Below, one piece after another: positions 3,734-10,205 of a stretch of 42,447 nt of DNA. The first letter of the stretch is position 1. Every line of letters begins with the position of its first letter. The position numbers and the translations under genes are program-made. The notes beneath the pieces are model-generated. The model searched no databases. It saw only the letters and a program-made list of their open reading frames with translations, and had not been told where the DNA came from. Source of the stretch: Deltaproteobacteria bacterium (lineage in GTDB: Bacteria > Desulfobacterota > Syntrophobacteria > Syntrophobacterales > Syntrophobacteraceae); the NCBI GenBank assembly GCA_012517315.1, contig JAAYVE010000032.1:1-42447 (forward strand), given 5' to 3'.

Positions 3734-4333
3734 TCAGAATTCCCGGCGCCCCTTCATGGCCCTCTCAAGCGTCACCCGATCCGTGTACTTGAGGTCTCCC
3801 CCCATGGGGATTCCGTAAGCGATGCGCGAAACCTGAACTCCACGGTCCTTCAGGAGCCGCAATAGGTAATGGGCGGTGGCTTCGCCCTCGTTGCTGGGGT
3901 TCGTGGCCAGGATCACCTCCCGGATGCCTTCCGCCGGGATCCGGTTGAGGAGTTCCCGGATGCGCAGGTCTTCGGGACCCACCGCCTCCAACGGAGAAAG
4001 GACCCCCTGCAGCACATGATACCGGCCTTTGAACGCCCCGGAATTCTCAATGGCGAGGAGGTCCCCCGTGCTTTCCACGACACAAAGAATTCCGTTTGCT
4101 CTCGCCGGGTCGGAACAGATGGAACACAATTCGCCGTCCGTGAAGTGAAAACACCGGGAGCAGGTGTGCACTTCACGCCGCATGCGCCGGATCAGATCGG
4201 CCAAGGCATCCGCCTCCTCTTGTGGAGCCTGGAGCAGGAACATGGCAACGCGGCCTGCACTCTTTTCTCCCAAACCCGGAAGCCTGCTCAGCCTTCGAAT
4301 CAAGTCCCTGAGAACAGACGGATATGCATCCAT
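3734..4333 (-). CDS. recR: Recombination mediator protein RecR
   Basis: RecR forms a DNA-clamp ring that works with RecO, and in many bacteria RecF, to load RecA at single-strand gaps. At 199 residues it has the standard length. An N-terminal helix-hairpin-helix region (LSRLPGLGEKSAGRVAMFLL) is followed by the C4 zinc finger (Cys58, Cys61, Cys70, Cys73) and a Toprim domain beginning ILCVVEST near residue 82. It lies four bases downstream of ebfC, and the dnaX-ebfC-recR order is a widely conserved bacterial cluster. Confidence 0.96.
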   Translation of the reverse strand: MDAYPSVLRDLIRRLSRLPGLGEKSAGRVAMFLLQAPQEEADALADLIRRMRREVHTCSRCFHFTDGELCSICSDPARANGILCVVESTGDLLAIENSGAFKGRYHVLQGVLSPLEAVGPEDLRIRELLNRIPAEGIREVILATNPSNEGEATAHYLLRLLKDRGVQVSRIAYGIPMGGDLKYTDRVTLERAMKGRREF

Positions 4334-4337
4334 GGAA

Positions 4338-4664
4338 TCAGAAAAGTCCGGGAATCTTGAGACCAGGGATGTTCAGTCCCCCCGCGAGCCTCGACATTTC
4401 CCCCGCGGCCATTTCCTGGGAGCGCCTGAGGCCGTCGTTCACGGCAGCCACCACGAGATCCTGAAGCATCTCCACGTCCTGGGGATCGACGACCTGGGGG
4501 TCTATCTTGAGACTCAAAAGCTCCTGGCGACCATTGAAAACGGCCGTGACCATACCCCCGCCTGCCGTGCTCTCCACTCTCTTGGCGGCCAACTCGTCCT
4601 GGACCTTCGCCATCTTCTCCTGCAGCGCCTTGACCTGCTGCATGGGGTTGAAACCCTTCACCAT
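4338..4664 (-). CDS. ebfC: YbaB/EbfC-family nucleoid-associated protein
   Basis: This 108-residue protein is a small homodimeric DNA-binding protein of the YbaB/EbfC family. The N-terminal helix (VKALQEKMAKVQDELA), the central VESTAGGGMVTAVFNG and the LLVAAVND-type segment match the family. I chose the ATG at 4664 over the upstream in-frame start at 4694 because ggaagga lies six bases before it and the family begins MxxGF. The 223 bp separating it from dnaX are AT-rich in part (4800-4860) and may contain an internal promoter for ebfC-recR. Confidence 0.92.
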   Translation of the reverse strand: MVKGFNPMQQVKALQEKMAKVQDELAAKRVESTAGGGMVTAVFNGRQELLSLKIDPQVVDPQDVEMLQDLVVAAVNDGLRRSQEMAAGEMSRLAGGLNIPGLKIPGLF

Positions 4665-4887
4665 CGTGCATCCTTCCCGGCGGAGTCTCCTCACGCATCA
4701 TCTGCAAAAAGAAACAAAACCAGATCTCAAGAGCCGGCCACAGTCAAATCCAACGTCGGGGAGGATCGCGTCAGGCGGCGACCTTTCCCGACAGCCCCGA
4801 CGGAACGGGTTCCACATATCATTTATCGCTGAAAATTCAACCCGTAAATATCAATGGAAATTTCATGCATAAAGGCCAGGTTCCCCT

Positions 4888-6789
4888 TCAAGAAGCCCCT
4901 TCCCCGGGAATTCTTCCCCCTTTTTTCTCCCGCCTCTCCGAAGACTTGGCCGGCTTGATCTCGATGAGTTCCGCCCCCAGTATCTCCATGGCCTGCTGAA
5001 CCACCGGGTGTTCCATAACTCCCACTTTTTTCTGCGTTTTTGATGGACTGCTTCGTCGACTCCCTTCAACACTGGGGTGACCAGCCGCCTTTGCGCCCAC
5101 TTTGACCTGGAAATCCCGGCCGAAGTAATCCCGGATGGCCCCTCTGAGCCTTTGCAGATTCTGAGGATCCTTCATGGGAGCCTCGAAGATCTCCAATACA
5201 TTCACCTGCAGTGTTCCTTCCCCCATGTCACGCACATCGCTCTGGTGAAGCTTCGCTGAAAGAACGGGACACCGTTCCTGGCTCCACTGCAGAAACTCCG
5301 GCCACCTGGAGGGAACCTCCTCAGTGAGACACCCCCGTGTGCCGTCAGGCATCTTGTTCCATGACGAGTTTTCCGCCCCAGAAAAAGGAGGAGACCCCGA
5401 CCCAGACGACGCTATCGGTTCCAGGGGGGCAACCCTGTTCAAAGCCCCTCCCTCATCCGGAGTAATACTCTGCCTGTCCTTTTTTGGGACGGCGTTTTCG
5501 GGTCCTTCGACATCCCTTTCACCAACTCCAGGGGATGGGAACAACGGGCCAGGGTGATACGTTTCCTCTCGCCTTTTACCGCCTGTGAGAGGGGGCACCC
5601 TTTCTGATGCCACCAAGGGACCGCCTTGGGAAAACCGCTTTTCCAACAATGAGATATCCTGGAGAATTCGGTCGACAGACTGGAGGGAGGGAAGGGTAGC
5701 CAACCGCACCAGCAGCATCTCAAGGGCGATCTTGGGCATTGTGGCCCTTCGAATGTCCTCTTCCCCCTTCAAGAGAAGCTGAAAGATGAGGTGGATCGAC
5801 TCGGGGGTGATCTTCTCTGCTTCACTACGAAGCATTTCCCTCTCCTCGTCGGGAATCTCCATTCGAAGGTCTGCGTCGTCTTCGCAGATCTTTATGAACA
5901 GCAGGTTCCTGAAGTGGTCACAGAGGTGCTGACAGAAGCGCCTGCAGTCGATTCCACGGGCATGAATCCGGTCCACAACCTGGAGACAGGTGGGAGCGTC
6001 CCCCTCCACAACCGCTTTTCCGGCAAGGAGAACGGAGCTGCGGTCGACGACGCCGAGGACGTCGAGCAGTTCCGCATCGCTCAAGCCGGCGCCACTGAAA
6101 GCCAGAACCTGTTCCAAGAGACTCTGGGCGTCTCGCATGCTCCCATCTGCCTCTTTGGCAATGGCGTAAAGCAAAGGGGTGGAGATTTCTGACTCTGAGC
6201 CCACCAAGTCCGAAGCGATCCTCTTCAGGTGATCCACAATGAGGCTGGTGGCAATGCGCCTGAAGTCAAACCTTTGACAGCGGCTCAGGATGGTGGAGGG
6301 GATCTTGTGCGGTTCCGTCGTGGCAAAAAGAAAGACGACGTGTTCAGGGGGTTCCTCCAGCGTTTTGAGCAGAGCGTTGAACGCCTCCGTCGTGAGCATG
6401 TGCACTTCATCGATGATATAGATCCGGGATCGGCTCTTGGCAGGCCTGTACCTCACCGTCTCCCTGAGCTCCCTGATGCTGTCGATGCCCCGGTTGGAAG
6501 CCCCATCCACTTCGAGCACATCCACGCTGTTGCCTTGAGTGATCTCCCGGCAGTTGGAGCAGACGTTGCAGGGTCTTGCCGGCAACTCCTTTTCGCAGTT
6601 GAGCGTCTTGGCCAGGATCCTTGCGACAGAGGTCTTGCCGACCCCGCGGGCACCCGTAAAAAGATATGCGTGCGCCACACGGCCGGCCATCACGGCGTTC
6701 CGAAGTGTCCTGGTGACGTGCGGCTGCCCGATCACCTCATCGAAGTTCTGGGGGCGCCACTTTCGGGCGATTACAAGATATGATGTCAT
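4888..6789 (-). CDS. dnaX: DNA polymerase III subunits gamma/tau
   Basis: DnaX is the AAA+ motor of the clamp loader that opens the sliding clamp and ties together the replicase. Walker A GARGVGKT is at residues 46-53, the zinc-binding cysteines are Cys65, 74, 77 and 80, Walker B IIDEVH is near 125, sensor 1 ATTEP is at 156, and the SRC arginine finger is near 169. Domain III ends near residue 370. A low-complexity, proline-rich linker follows, and then a C-terminal tau-like domain. The protein is 633 residues. I saw no obvious A6G slippery heptamer, so a frameshifted gamma form is not supported by sequence alone. Its start lies about 140 bp downstream of tRNA-Ser(GGA). Confidence 0.96.
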   Translation of the reverse strand: MTSYLVIARKWRPQNFDEVIGQPHVTRTLRNAVMAGRVAHAYLFTGARGVGKTSVARILAKTLNCEKELPARPCNVCSNCREITQGNSVDVLEVDGASNRGIDSIRELRETVRYRPAKSRSRIYIIDEVHMLTTEAFNALLKTLEEPPEHVVFLFATTEPHKIPSTILSRCQRFDFRRIATSLIVDHLKRIASDLVGSESEISTPLLYAIAKEADGSMRDAQSLLEQVLAFSGAGLSDAELLDVLGVVDRSSVLLAGKAVVEGDAPTCLQVVDRIHARGIDCRRFCQHLCDHFRNLLFIKICEDDADLRMEIPDEEREMLRSEAEKITPESIHLIFQLLLKGEEDIRRATMPKIALEMLLVRLATLPSLQSVDRILQDISLLEKRFSQGGPLVASERVPPLTGGKRREETYHPGPLFPSPGVGERDVEGPENAVPKKDRQSITPDEGGALNRVAPLEPIASSGSGSPPFSGAENSSWNKMPDGTRGCLTEEVPSRWPEFLQWSQERCPVLSAKLHQSDVRDMGEGTLQVNVLEIFEAPMKDPQNLQRLRGAIRDYFGRDFQVKVGAKAAGHPSVEGSRRSSPSKTQKKVGVMEHPVVQQAMEILGAELIEIKPAKSSERREKKGGRIPGEGAS

Positions 6790-6928
6790 CTCTTTTGAGG
6801 GTTGAGCCCCGGGGCGGAATGTCTTGTGTGGAGGTGCATGCGCCGCAGCCGACGCGCTGGATCACAATGCAAGAGATCCGGTCAAAGCGTCACGCCAGTC
6901 ATGGCACGAAGCCAGACTGCATCTTTGC

Positions 6929-7021
6929 TGGCGGAGAGAGAGGGATTCGAACCCTCGGTACACCTTTTGGGCGTACACACGATTTCCAGTCGTGCTCCTT
7001 CAGCCTCTCGGACATCTCTCC
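6929..7021 (-). tRNA. tRNA-Ser (anticodon GGA)
   Basis: On the minus strand this is a 93-nt class II tRNA with an encoded CCA. The acceptor stem is GGAGAGA/TCTCTCC, the anticodon loop is ctGGAaa, and a long variable arm (gtacgcccaaaaggtgtac) is typical of serine tRNAs. It lies 53 bp downstream of tRNA-Ser(CGA) and upstream of dnaX on the same strand, so it is probably processed from a tadA-tRNA-tRNA transcript. Confidence 0.97.
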
Positions 7022-7074
7022 GCAATGGTATGGGAAACAGCACTCAGGCAGAGGCTCATTATTCGGAATCGAGG

Positions 7075-7170
7075 TGGCGGAGAGGGTGGGATTCGAACCC
7101 ACGTGCCCTGCTCTTCACAGGACAAGTCGATTTCGAGTCGACCCCGTTACGGCCTCTTCGGTACCTCTCC
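7075..7170 (-). tRNA. tRNA-Ser (anticodon CGA)
   Basis: On the minus strand this is a 96-nt class II tRNA with encoded CCA. The acceptor stem is GGAGAGG/CCTCTCC, the anticodon loop is ctCGAaa, and the variable arm is long. Its first 24 nucleotides are also the last eight codons of tadA including the stop, so the mRNA and tRNA share sequence (see findings). Confidence 0.97.
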
Positions 7171-7647
7171 ACGAAAGCCCTGCTGCTTTTCCTGACGACG
7201 TTCACGAAAGAAACGCCTGAGAATCTCAGCGCATTCCTCCACGCGAACGCCACCGATCACCACTATATAATGATTGAATCCGGACACCCTTGTCAAGTCC
7301 ACAACACCCCCGGCTGCACCCCACTTGGGATCCGGAGCTCCGAATACAAGCTTGCTAAGGCGGGCGTGGAGCATTGCCCCCAGGCACATGGGACAGGGTT
7401 CCAGGGTGACATAGAGCGTCGAACCGGTCAACCTGTAGTTGCCCAGCTCCGATGCCGCCTGACGTATGGCGAGGATTTCCGCATGGGCGGTGGGGTCGTT
7501 GCAGGCAATTGGAGCGTTATATGCCCGGCTGAGAACCCTTCCATTGGTGTCCACAACGACGGCCCCCACGGGAACCTCTCCCTGTGCGTAGCCCCTGGCC
7601 GCCTCTTCAAGGGCCAAACCCATGTAATGGTGAGGATCCGGACTCAT
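7147..7647 (-). CDS. tadA: tRNA-specific adenosine deaminase TadA
   Basis: TadA converts A34 to inosine in tRNA-Arg(ACG). The 166-residue protein has the zinc-site motifs HAE (His55, catalytic Glu57) and PCPMC (Cys85, Cys88), and the conserved EVPVGAVVV near residue 24. A GTG at 7671 is also in frame, but I prefer the ATG at 7647 because the resulting N-terminus matches the length before the VPVGA block in other TadA proteins. The ribosome-binding site is weak in either case. The 3' end overlaps tRNA-Ser(CGA) by 24 bp, and the stop TAA lies inside the tRNA D-arm region. It heads a minus-strand unit of tRNA-Ser, tRNA-Ser, dnaX, ebfC and recR. Confidence 0.93.
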   Translation of the reverse strand: MSPDPHHYMGLALEEAARGYAQGEVPVGAVVVDTNGRVLSRAYNAPIACNDPTAHAEILAIRQAASELGNYRLTGSTLYVTLEPCPMCLGAMLHARLSKLVFGAPDPKWGAAGGVVDLTRVSGFNHYIVVIGGVRVEECAEILRRFFRERRQEKQQGFRGEVPKRP

Positions 7648-7671
7648 TTCCGATGGGATCTTCCCCTTCAC

Positions 7672-8121
7672 TCGGGATCATCCCCATAACACAATGGACG
7701 ACAGCGACAGCCGCGAACCCTCCGAACCGACGGAGGACCTTCTCCTCGGGTCTTCTTCTCCTTGCAAGGCGCAGCAAAAACGAGTCAAAAAGCTGTCTTG
7801 CAAATCCTACCGAAGTGAGGTACGGAAATCGAGCGGAATTGTGCAGAATTGTTTTGCCCAACTCACCATGCTACTTATAATACATGATGAGTTCTCTACA
7901 GAATATACCATAAGCCCACGCAAAAGGCGTCGAGGCGTAATTTTCGCCAGCCGCTCCGGCGGGTTTTGCAAAGGGCTCGGGACGGGCTAGGGTTCATCGG
8001 CAGCGTGAGTTCACTCCAGATGAAAAAAGCATGTTCTCCGGAGGTTGAGGACTCCTCTAGGGGGCATTCCTTTAAAGGGGAATTGCCTTCCGGGGATTCC
8101 TGTTTCCGCCCCTTGGCCGGC
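7672..8121. other. Divergent intergenic region between tadA and the cell-wall genes
   Basis: The divergent genes tadA (leftward) and the Cys-rich protein (rightward) leave about 450 bp without a supported gene. The sequence becomes AT-rich around 7840-7910, where a good plus-strand promoter is visible. Short open frames here have no ribosome-binding site and no recognisable content. Confidence 0.6.
7854..7881 (+). promoter_or_regulatory. Predicted sigma-70 promoter for the Cys-rich protein/L,D-transpeptidase genes
   Basis: A -35 box TTGCCC (7854-7859) is followed after 16 bp by a perfect -10 TATAAT (7876-7881). Transcription would start near 7888 and run rightward, giving a leader of about 130-230 nt before the Cys-rich protein. 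No other plus-strand promoter of this quality precedes the two genes. Confidence 0.6.
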
Positions 8122-8334
8122 ATGAAGCTGGTCTTCGATCCCAGTGCTTGTGGGCACGGTTCTCGCAAGAACCCATGTCCCGACTGTTATCGTTGCCAGT
8201 TCTGCAGCGATGACCGCTGTAACGCGTGCAGGGGAAAAAAGGGGGGTTCCAAAGAGACTCCTCCTCGAAAGCTGTCATTGAAGGAGCAGATCGCCCTCTA
8301 CGAGAGGGTCAATTCTCAGGCCGGATCTCATTGA
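8122..8334 (+). CDS. Small cysteine-rich protein of unknown function
   Basis: About 70 residues from the likely start. The core has His-Gly then cysteines arranged as CPDCYRCQFC and CNAC, preceded by another Cys in SACGHGS, so six or seven cysteines could bind one or two zinc ions or an iron-sulfur cluster. A basic, lysine-rich C-terminal tail follows. The start is uncertain: ATG at 8122 and ATG at 8020 are both in frame, and neither has a strong ribosome-binding site. The stop lies 17 bp before the L,D-transpeptidase ATG, suggesting co-transcription. I do not recognise a named family; the dense cysteine spacing and the position behind a promoter are the reasons for calling it a gene. Confidence 0.55.
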   Translation: MKLVFDPSACGHGSRKNPCPDCYRCQFCSDDRCNACRGKKGGSKETPPRKLSLKEQIALYERVNSQAGSH

Positions 8335-8351
8335 TTCTGGAGAGGGGATTC

Positions 8352-10205
8352 ATGAATCCTGTAAGACTCAGCGCGGCTCTCATTTTTGTGGATCCTCACC
8401 CATGGAAACGTCCTCCGCTGTCCTGCGTTGCTTTGCTCTGCTTTCTCCTTTTGCTGTGCAATGCCTCTCCTGGACCGGCTCAAACGCTGGCCGTGCTCAA
8501 AGAGGTCACGCCTGGCGCCGTTGAAGCCTCGGCCCCTGTCCAGGAAGGAATCGAGGCACGTGCCGCATCCCCTTACTGGAGACCCTTCATATGGGAAGCA
8601 CTCCCTCCCAACTCCCTCATTGACTCCAACGGCAGCCAGATCCTGGAAGCGTATCAACTCAATGAGTGGAGACCGTTCTTTTTCGGCGCGCGATTTGAAT
8701 TGAACGCCAAAGGCAAAACCCTGCTGGAGAGACTCCAAAAATTGCAGGACGATGCCATCGACCCCGCCCCATTCGCTCTTGACTCCTTCCAGGCAGAATT
8801 GCTGAAACTGGAGAGTTTGCGCCAGGCGCTCATGGTCCTGGACCCGGCTTTCCGTGATACACTGGCGGTGCTCGAAGACTGGGAGTCACCTCAGACAGGC
8901 TCTGGGGGCAAGGGGCCGGATGGAGGAAACATCAGGCTTGCGAGCGCCAACTCTCAGATACCCTTGCCTGAGAAGGCTTTCGCCCGGGATAGGGAGGAAC
9001 ACTACCGGCAGTTGTTCAGGACGGCAAGCCTTTTAGATACTCGATTGGCGGAAAAACTGGTGCGGTTTACAGCATCCATGCACCCACGATACAGGGATGA
9101 GCAGGTCAAGGTGCTGTCGGACCAGATGGACATGGCGGATTTCCTCAGGGGTCTCGAACTGGCTTCACCCCAATACGAGAATCTCAAGAAGGCCGCTAGA
9201 ATGTATAGCGCACTCGTGTCCGGCGATGTGAAACAGCCGGTCATCGCCGGTGTTCGGCTCCAACTCGGGGACAGAGGGGACGCGGTGGCGGCCCTTCAAA
9301 AGAGACTGCACCAGGAAGGATTCTATGACGGCAAGATCACCGGGGTTTTCGACGTGTCCACCCAGGACGCCGTCAAGAAGTTCCAGCGGGCCCACCTCGT
9401 GGACGACGACGGAACCATCGGAAAACAGACGCAGCAATGGCTCAACGTGAGCTACCGGTTCAAGCTTGGCATGATCCGGGATGCAATGCGCAACCTCCGA
9501 CTGAGCGAAGCGAGGTTCCATGATCGTTACATTCGCATCAACATTCCCCAGTTTACTCTCGAGTATTACAAAGAAGGCAGAGTCCATGCGGTCCACCGGG
9601 TCATCGTCGGCAAGGCTTCCGGAAAGAAGATCAAGCTGCAGGGGCGCTTGGTGGGTGAAAACCACACCCCTCCCCTTACCAGCGCCATCGAACAACTGGT
9701 GATCAACCCTCGCTGGTATGTTTCCGACCGAATTCGCCAGGAGCTCAACGGGCAGGCCGGGGACGACCCCACCTATTTTGTGCGGAACGGCTACGTGCAG
9801 ATGTCCTCTCAGCACCCTTGGGGTGAGCACCGCCTCTACATGCTTCCCGGTCCGTCCAACCCCCTGGGCCGCGTCAAGTTCGATTTTCCCAACCCCTACG
9901 CCGTATATCTCCACGACACCCCAAAGAAGTACCTTTTCCAAAGGTCCCGAAGGGACTTCTCCCACGGGTGCATCCGGGTGGAACGTGCGCAGGAACTGGC
10001 CCAGCTCCTGCTGACCGACGACGGAAACCCAGCCGCCCAGAAGACTCAAACCTACTATGCGACCAACCGTCAGGTCTTCATTCGGCTTGAGCAGCCTGTG
10101 CCCATCATCATCGAATACCAACCCGTGTCTTTCGGGAGCGACAACGAGGTGGTATTCTGCGGCGACCCCTACGGGTGGTTCGGAGAAAAGCCGTCCCTGG
10201 GCTGA
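8352..10205 (+). CDS. YcbB-like L,D-transpeptidase
   Basis: This 617-residue exported enzyme would form 3-3 crosslinks in peptidoglycan or attach proteins to it. It has a signal peptide with a leucine/cysteine-rich core at about residues 24-36, then a scaffold domain, a peptidoglycan-binding domain at about 302-366 (LGDRGDAVAALQKRL, GVFDVSTQDAVKKFQ), and a YkuD catalytic domain ending in SHGCIRVE with catalytic Cys540. Length and order match the LdtD/YcbB type. The ATG at 8352 is chosen because ggagagggg lies just upstream; the longer frame from 8226 has no such signal and would bury the signal peptide. A cluster of small deletions or frameshifts is not seen. Confidence 0.92.
   Translation: MNPVRLSAALIFVDPHPWKRPPLSCVALLCFLLLLCNASPGPAQTLAVLKEVTPGAVEASAPVQEGIEARAASPYWRPFIWEALPPNSLIDSNGSQILEAYQLNEWRPFFFGARFELNAKGKTLLERLQKLQDDAIDPAPFALDSFQAELLKLESLRQALMVLDPAFRDTLAVLEDWESPQTGSGGKGPDGGNIRLASANSQIPLPEKAFARDREEHYRQLFRTASLLDTRLAEKLVRFTASMHPRYRDEQVKVLSDQMDMADFLRGLELASPQYENLKKAARMYSALVSGDVKQPVIAGVRLQLGDRGDAVAALQKRLHQEGFYDGKITGVFDVSTQDAVKKFQRAHLVDDDGTIGKQTQQWLNVSYRFKLGMIRDAMRNLRLSEARFHDRYIRINIPQFTLEYYKEGRVHAVHRVIVGKASGKKIKLQGRLVGENHTPPLTSAIEQLVINPRWYVSDRIRQELNGQAGDDPTYFVRNGYVQMSSQHPWGEHRLYMLPGPSNPLGRVKFDFPNPYAVYLHDTPKKYLFQRSRRDFSHGCIRVERAQELAQLLLTDDGNPAAQKTQTYYATNRQVFIRLEQPVPIIIEYQPVSFGSDNEVVFCGDPYGWFGEKPSLG

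Follow-up and report, generated by a model that had tools for sequence, protein, structure and literature searches.

Joint mRNA-tRNA transcripts that RNase P cleaves, secG-leuU of E. coli among them, were reportedly described by Mohanty and Kushner in 2008; to our knowledge, no reading frame ends inside the tRNA there and no tRNA promoter is embedded in the upstream gene. The nearest published case to the locus described here is selB/selC, in which a tRNA-Sec gene is nested in or overlaps the selB ORF. In the portion of Mukai 2021 consulted (PMC8124441), the main form has the whole tRNA nested, partial overlaps are also described, and stops lie either mid-tRNA (nt 46-48 in Dyella/Luteibacter) or past the tRNA. 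Repression of the protein by tRNA processing is put forward in the same portion as a hypothesis (PMC8124441). Half of E. coli operons are reported to contain internal promoters, according to the consulted part of PMC12083536. Among the titles and abstract openings searched, we recognised no published description of a tadA/tRNA-Ser overlap.

The tadA reading frame ends inside tRNA-Ser(CGA)

The window, the whole 42,447-nt stretch of DNA that was analysed, carries the following features around the overlap:

7147..7671, minus strand: tadA (tRNA adenosine deaminase), an ORF of 174 aa from a mechanical GTG start; the start position is putative
7075..7170, minus strand: tRNA-Ser(CGA), called by ARAGORN; one copy found in the draft genome
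7147..7170, minus strand: overlap of 24 nt, in which the seven last tadA codons and TAA are tRNA nt 1-24
7147..7149, minus strand: tadA stop codon TAA, at tRNA nt 22-24 in the D-arm
6929..7021, minus strand: tRNA-Ser(GGA), called by ARAGORN and Rfam; next gene downstream of tRNA-Ser(CGA)
4888..6789, minus strand: dnaX (DNA polymerase III gamma/tau), downstream
4338..4694, minus strand: ybaB/ebfC, downstream

On the minus strand, the gene order is tadA, tRNA-Ser(CGA), tRNA-Ser(GGA), dnaX and ybaB. The tadA product scores 187.1 bits against NCBIfam NF008113 (TadA; cut-off 150), and the tRNA matches Rfam RF00005 at 7078-7170 minus with 52.0 bits (cut-off 29). The ORF closes with ...GEVPKRP-TAA, encoded by nt 7170-7147 (GGA GAG GTA CCG AAG AGG CCG TAA), a stretch that spans the acceptor strand and D-arm of the tRNA. 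A same-strand protein ORF enters a complete tRNA gene at this locus, and the coordinates and reading of the overlap given in the original prediction are borne out by ARAGORN, Rfam, the ORF end and NF008113. Any tadA mRNA that reaches its stop must hold 24 nt of the tRNA.

In the stretches fetched from the window's genome, ARAGORN finds 45 distinct tRNA genes and Rfam 44, and the longest ORF entering any of the 45 is tadA into tRNA-Ser(CGA), at 167 codons. The four next-longest tRNA-entering ORFs, which run into tRNA-Leu(TAG), Val(CAC), Gly(CCC) and Pro(TGG), gave no Pfam match at E 0.001 and were taken as chance ORFs. The genome also encodes a tmRNA (215.5 bits), tRNA-Arg(ACG) as a separate single gene, and tRNA-Ser(TGA). 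The last of these could read UCG via wobble, so partial loss of tRNA-Ser(CGA) might be tolerated.

A candidate promoter in tadA codons accompanies a close tRNA

A consensus scan places a sigma70-type sequence, TTGACA-N18-CATTAT, at 7296-7267 on the minus strand, within the tadA CDS:

7291..7296, minus strand: candidate -35 element TTGACA, formed by tadA codons Leu TTG and Thr ACA
7267..7272, minus strand: candidate -10 element CATTAT, formed by tadA codons His CAT and Tyr TAT, after an 18-bp spacer
7171..7266, minus strand: stretch from the -10 element to the mature tRNA 5' end, 96 nt; transcription start predicted near 7260

The element fits the sigma70 criteria of TTGACA, a 16-18 bp spacer and a -10 with A2 and T6; its -35 is perfect, and CATTAT matches the -10 consensus TATAAT at four of six positions. 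The scan match is no evidence on its own, since 4200-8400 contains two such sites and its shuffled versions averaged 1.2. Comparison within the window's order covered 38 loci, one per genome (38 of the 39 order genomes were matched), with the offset measured from a conserved His codon. All 26 genomes with an overlapping tRNA, or with one no more than 20 nt from tadA, have TTGACA and an A2/T6 -10 at the fixed offset; none of the 12 whose tRNA is 82-138 nt away (eight genomes) or unseen downstream within the stretch examined (four) does. The distance from element to tRNA is near-constant across order genomes, at 100-131 nt.

The codons that spell the element are themselves unusual. A leave-one-out codon-usage test covered 68 columns in 21 genomes of families f1 and f2 with tight packing, one of each near-identical pair being omitted; its p-values treat related genomes as independent. 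Thr ACA ranks first (21/21, expected 2.5) and Leu TTG second (21/21, expected 5.5), and Asp GAC and His CAT are also among the top five. The matching columns in genus g7 (n=10) have TTG in 0/10 and ACA in 2/10. The last base of the -10 stays T while the residue that it helps encode varies among Tyr, Ser, Thr and His. Searched for as a pattern across the phylum, the arrangement occurs in 13 of 395 genomes, all of them members of the order (13 of the 16 sampled), and in 0 of 379 non-order genomes; the three order misses are one g7 genome and two genomes with no tRNA nearby, and a backwards-pattern control gave no match among the rows listed.

Other measures are more modest. Against 200 synonymous shuffles, scored with hand-set promoter weights, the promoter score reaches p=0.075 in the window and 0.005-0.30 in the tight f1/f2 genomes. 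On a TadA tree of 47 rows, 37 of them from the window's order (22 branches starred, 17 open), the element changes three times among the 37 order rows; the tree yields just three independent pairs for element and tRNA proximity, all concordant (sign test p=0.25). Most probably, tRNA-Ser(CGA) is transcribed from a promoter of its own within tadA, and its supply in the window is most likely independent of tadA mRNA. The original prediction made tRNA output dependent on tadA mRNA and named a separate tRNA promoter as grounds for giving that dependence up; the conserved sigma70-type element predicts just such a tRNA-only transcript, and the dependence is not supported.

The overlap recurs among relatives and is readily changed

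A phylum-wide TadA search matched 349 of 395 genomes, and part of the loci found, 162 tadA loci from 161 genomes with repeats of one locus removed, were surveyed for their downstream tRNA. Because loci were chosen for likeness to the window's TadA, with two more families added, the survey leans towards relatives. In 33 of the 162 loci, spread over 12 of 35 families, the tadA frame runs into tRNA-Ser(CGA); the tadA stop lies 0-20 nt ahead of the tRNA in 43, 21-150 nt ahead in 37 and more than 150 nt ahead in 17, and no tRNA-Ser(CGA) starts within 900 nt of tadA in the remaining 32. The overlap thus recurs in related genomes, a comparison that the original prediction had asked for, and the congener G001 shares it.

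Overlap lengths fall into few classes: 24 nt in 23 loci, 56 nt in five, 1 nt in two and 47 nt in one, with the whole tRNA passed in two. The lengths recur because of reading frame, one frame meeting TAA at tRNA nt 22-24 and another TGA at nt 54-56. Only L279 (G456) and L292 (G473, a second tadA copy) among the 162 loci nest the entire tRNA-Ser(CGA) within the tadA frame, against 24 nt in the window. The L279 TadA is without the usual C-terminal helix, and the tRNA follows directly.

TAA occupies nt 22-24 of tRNA-Ser(CGA) in 85 of 97 non-overlapping genes and in 31 of 33 overlapping ones; of the 12 non-overlapping exceptions, seven are TAC in genus g7, where they make up seven of eight tRNAs. 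Its presence in the 85 non-overlapping tRNAs indicates that the tRNA supplies the tadA stop, and co-evolution of the stop within the tRNA was rejected on the same counts. With TAA already in the D-arm, an upstream tadA stop can be lost at little cost.

Such losses and gains appear repeatedly. The overlap changes eight times among the 37 order rows of the TadA tree, and the 25 order genomes there with a close tRNA divide into 12 with an overlap and 13 with the stop just before the tRNA. Congeners can differ by a single codon: at the third codon before the tRNA, the overlapping L003 of genus g8 has CGA where L004 (gap +6) has TGA, and in genus g12, L018 has GGA where L016 and L017 have TGA, together with one adjacent change. 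This lability argues against selection having maintained a switch in this lineage; the overlap seems to be a changeable side effect of tight packing and not a feedback switch. Non-conservation in close relatives, which the original prediction had named as a refuting result, is found in part: among these order genomes with a close tRNA, about as many lack the overlap as carry it, and a TGA separates congeners. The suggestion that tadA and the tRNA form a feedback pair finds no support, the promoter element being conserved while the stop position is labile.

A second scan, of named genomes, considered the best 80 of at least 595 candidates, few of them near relatives, and 12 of these 80 have a tRNA-Ser that begins no more than 900 nt past the tadA stop (L199 without a motif call). 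Three loci of family f40 (L060, L108 and L125) have tRNA-Ser(GGA), not CGA, 0-6 nt 3' of tadA, and family f69 (L089 and L111) has a tRNA-Sec gene downstream of its tRNA-Ser pair, within one cluster. Records from Peptococcaceae and Tissierellia (L150, L160, L203 and L205) also have tadA followed by tRNA-Ser(CGA), so the neighbourhood may be old.

Promoter position in other lineages

Elsewhere, the best promoter-like sites fall at other positions. Seven of the eight genomes of genus g7 with the tRNA have their best site in the gap, 78-80 nt ahead of it (exception L020); five of six scored genomes of family f5 have theirs 55-64 nt ahead of the tRNA (exception L040); and at L050, with a gap of 45, the best site spans the tadA stop. 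Among loci of families f54 and f39 (L051, L052, L054, L058 and L252-L292), 42 of 45, from 44 genomes, have TTGAC directly before the tadA start, its distance from the start being almost fixed; the window's order and class show this in 2 of 41. In most of the f54 and f39 loci with TTGAC, an A-rich, -10-like stretch can be seen by eye after it. The predicted mRNA leader there is only a few nt long. A conserved internal element is absent from all 24 f54 and 10 f39 genomes compared, two of which have gaps of 21 and 29 nt.

An internal promoter as a general rule was rejected outside the window's order, given the f54/f39 families without the signal and the 0/379 pattern count. Most tight or overlapping non-order genomes are without the internal element, so the explanation leaves some overlaps uncovered. 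At L039 and L048 (family f6), a TTAAAAT string ~10 nt ahead of the tRNA contains the TAA that ends tadA; it could be a -10 element that straddles the stop.

Promoter position seems to swap between lineages, judging from these motif placements, and one common tadA-tRNA transcript is the simple reading only where the putative promoter precedes tadA, as in f54 and f39. A broader proposal, which we regard as doubtful, is that tadA is a standing host of tRNA-Ser(CGA) whose promoter has been swapped among positions before tadA, inside its codons and in the gap; the f54 and f39 overlaps would then make completion of TadA and maturation of the tRNA true alternatives, with RNase P and the ribosome in competition.

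Proposed explanation and alternatives

For the window, we propose that tRNA-Ser(CGA) is packed against tadA's 3' end and owes most of its transcription to a sigma70-type promoter in tadA codons, the overlap being tolerated and changeable; we assign this reading a probability of roughly 0.77. Transcription would start near 7260, within tadA, giving a pre-tRNA whose leader of ~90 nt consists of the final tadA codons and would be trimmed by RNase P. We infer promoter activity, start site and RNase P cutting alike from the DNA. With the tRNA lying directly against tadA, the stop of the gene can fall just before, at or inside the tRNA, and in the window the D-arm TAA serves as that stop. An internal promoter would leave read-through from tadA possible too. 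RNase P biology suggests, in line with the original prediction, that cutting of such read-through RNA would remove the stop and leave a non-stop RNA, which the tmRNA present in the genome could rescue.

Three other explanations were weighed. A sequencing or assembly error that deleted a stop ahead of the tRNA is conceivable in a draft genome of 61 contigs, yet it can be dismissed with near certainty: the congener G001 carries the same 24-nt overlap, which makes an assembly slip unlikely, and the single-contig genome G015 shows it as well. The original prediction treated tadA and the tRNA as sharing an obligatory transcript, each molecule of which yields either TadA or tRNA, and offered a feedback link as the alternative to a coincidence of compaction. 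Bacterial TadA acts on tRNA-Arg(ACG), which is encoded separately here, and the anticodon CGA of this tRNA-Ser has no A34 to deaminate, so that a functional link between TadA and tRNA-Ser(CGA) appears weak. In favour of the obligatory transcript, the overlap is real and recurrent, the tadA mRNA up to its stop includes tRNA sequence, and the part of Mukai 2021 consulted proposes the same logic for selB/selC (PMC8124441). We nevertheless consider it unlikely, given the conserved internal promoter element and a stop whose place, inside or outside the tRNA, shifts between congeners and over the tree.

The conserved codons could also have another cause. TTGACA/CATNNT may be kept for a codon-level translation effect, another DNA-binding protein or an RNA structure, with the tRNA produced by read-through from upstream. 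The case for a promoter is built on sequence, and sigma70-like strings arise by chance; moreover, 6 of 24 leaders have folds of greater stability than their shuffled versions (z -1.7 to -5.5), among them the window's own (z -3.6; -4.23 for leader plus tRNA) and those of L002, L007, L027, L033 and L034. Such a constraint would have to account for the absence of the element from all 12 order genomes whose tRNA has moved away or is unseen, for its near-constant spacing to the tRNA, and for a T at the last -10 base kept across four residues, and we judge it improbable. Leader structure was dropped as a shared feature: 18 of the 24 leaders are within z 1.5, their shapes differ, and no common fold is apparent by eye.

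If the internal-promoter explanation is true, one tadA stretch in this order encodes protein, promoter and tRNA information at once, visible as frozen synonymous codons, and the locus shows a tRNA riding on a neighbour gene with a promoter able to move. Tests of RNase P against the ribosome could draw on natural variants with the tadA stop at -101, -100, -56, -47, -24, -1 and +1 to +20 relative to the tRNA, and on variants with the promoter-like element before, inside or after tadA. The locus also cautions that transcription need not be shared where a gene and a tRNA have a common boundary.

Comparison with known systems

As reported for secG-leuU, the tadA locus has a protein gene upstream of a tRNA, and a joint transcript would be acted on by RNase P. 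The likeness to selB/selC, as far as the consulted portion of PMC8124441 describes it, is closer: a same-strand ORF enters the tRNA, the extension begins with GGA (Gly), relatives have the stop before the tRNA, and an RNase P cut would give a non-stop mRNA. The tadA case differs from that description in its gene pair, TadA and tRNA-Ser(CGA) having no obvious functional partnership, in an overlap that is 24 nt long and labile, and in a conserved promoter-like element in the upstream gene. Internal promoters of E. coli operons, in the consulted part of PMC12083536, are alike in that a promoter within an operon serves a downstream gene. The tadA element differs from these in lying within coding sequence and apparently serving a tRNA, and in consisting of synonymous codons that are invariant across three families and absent where no tRNA is close.
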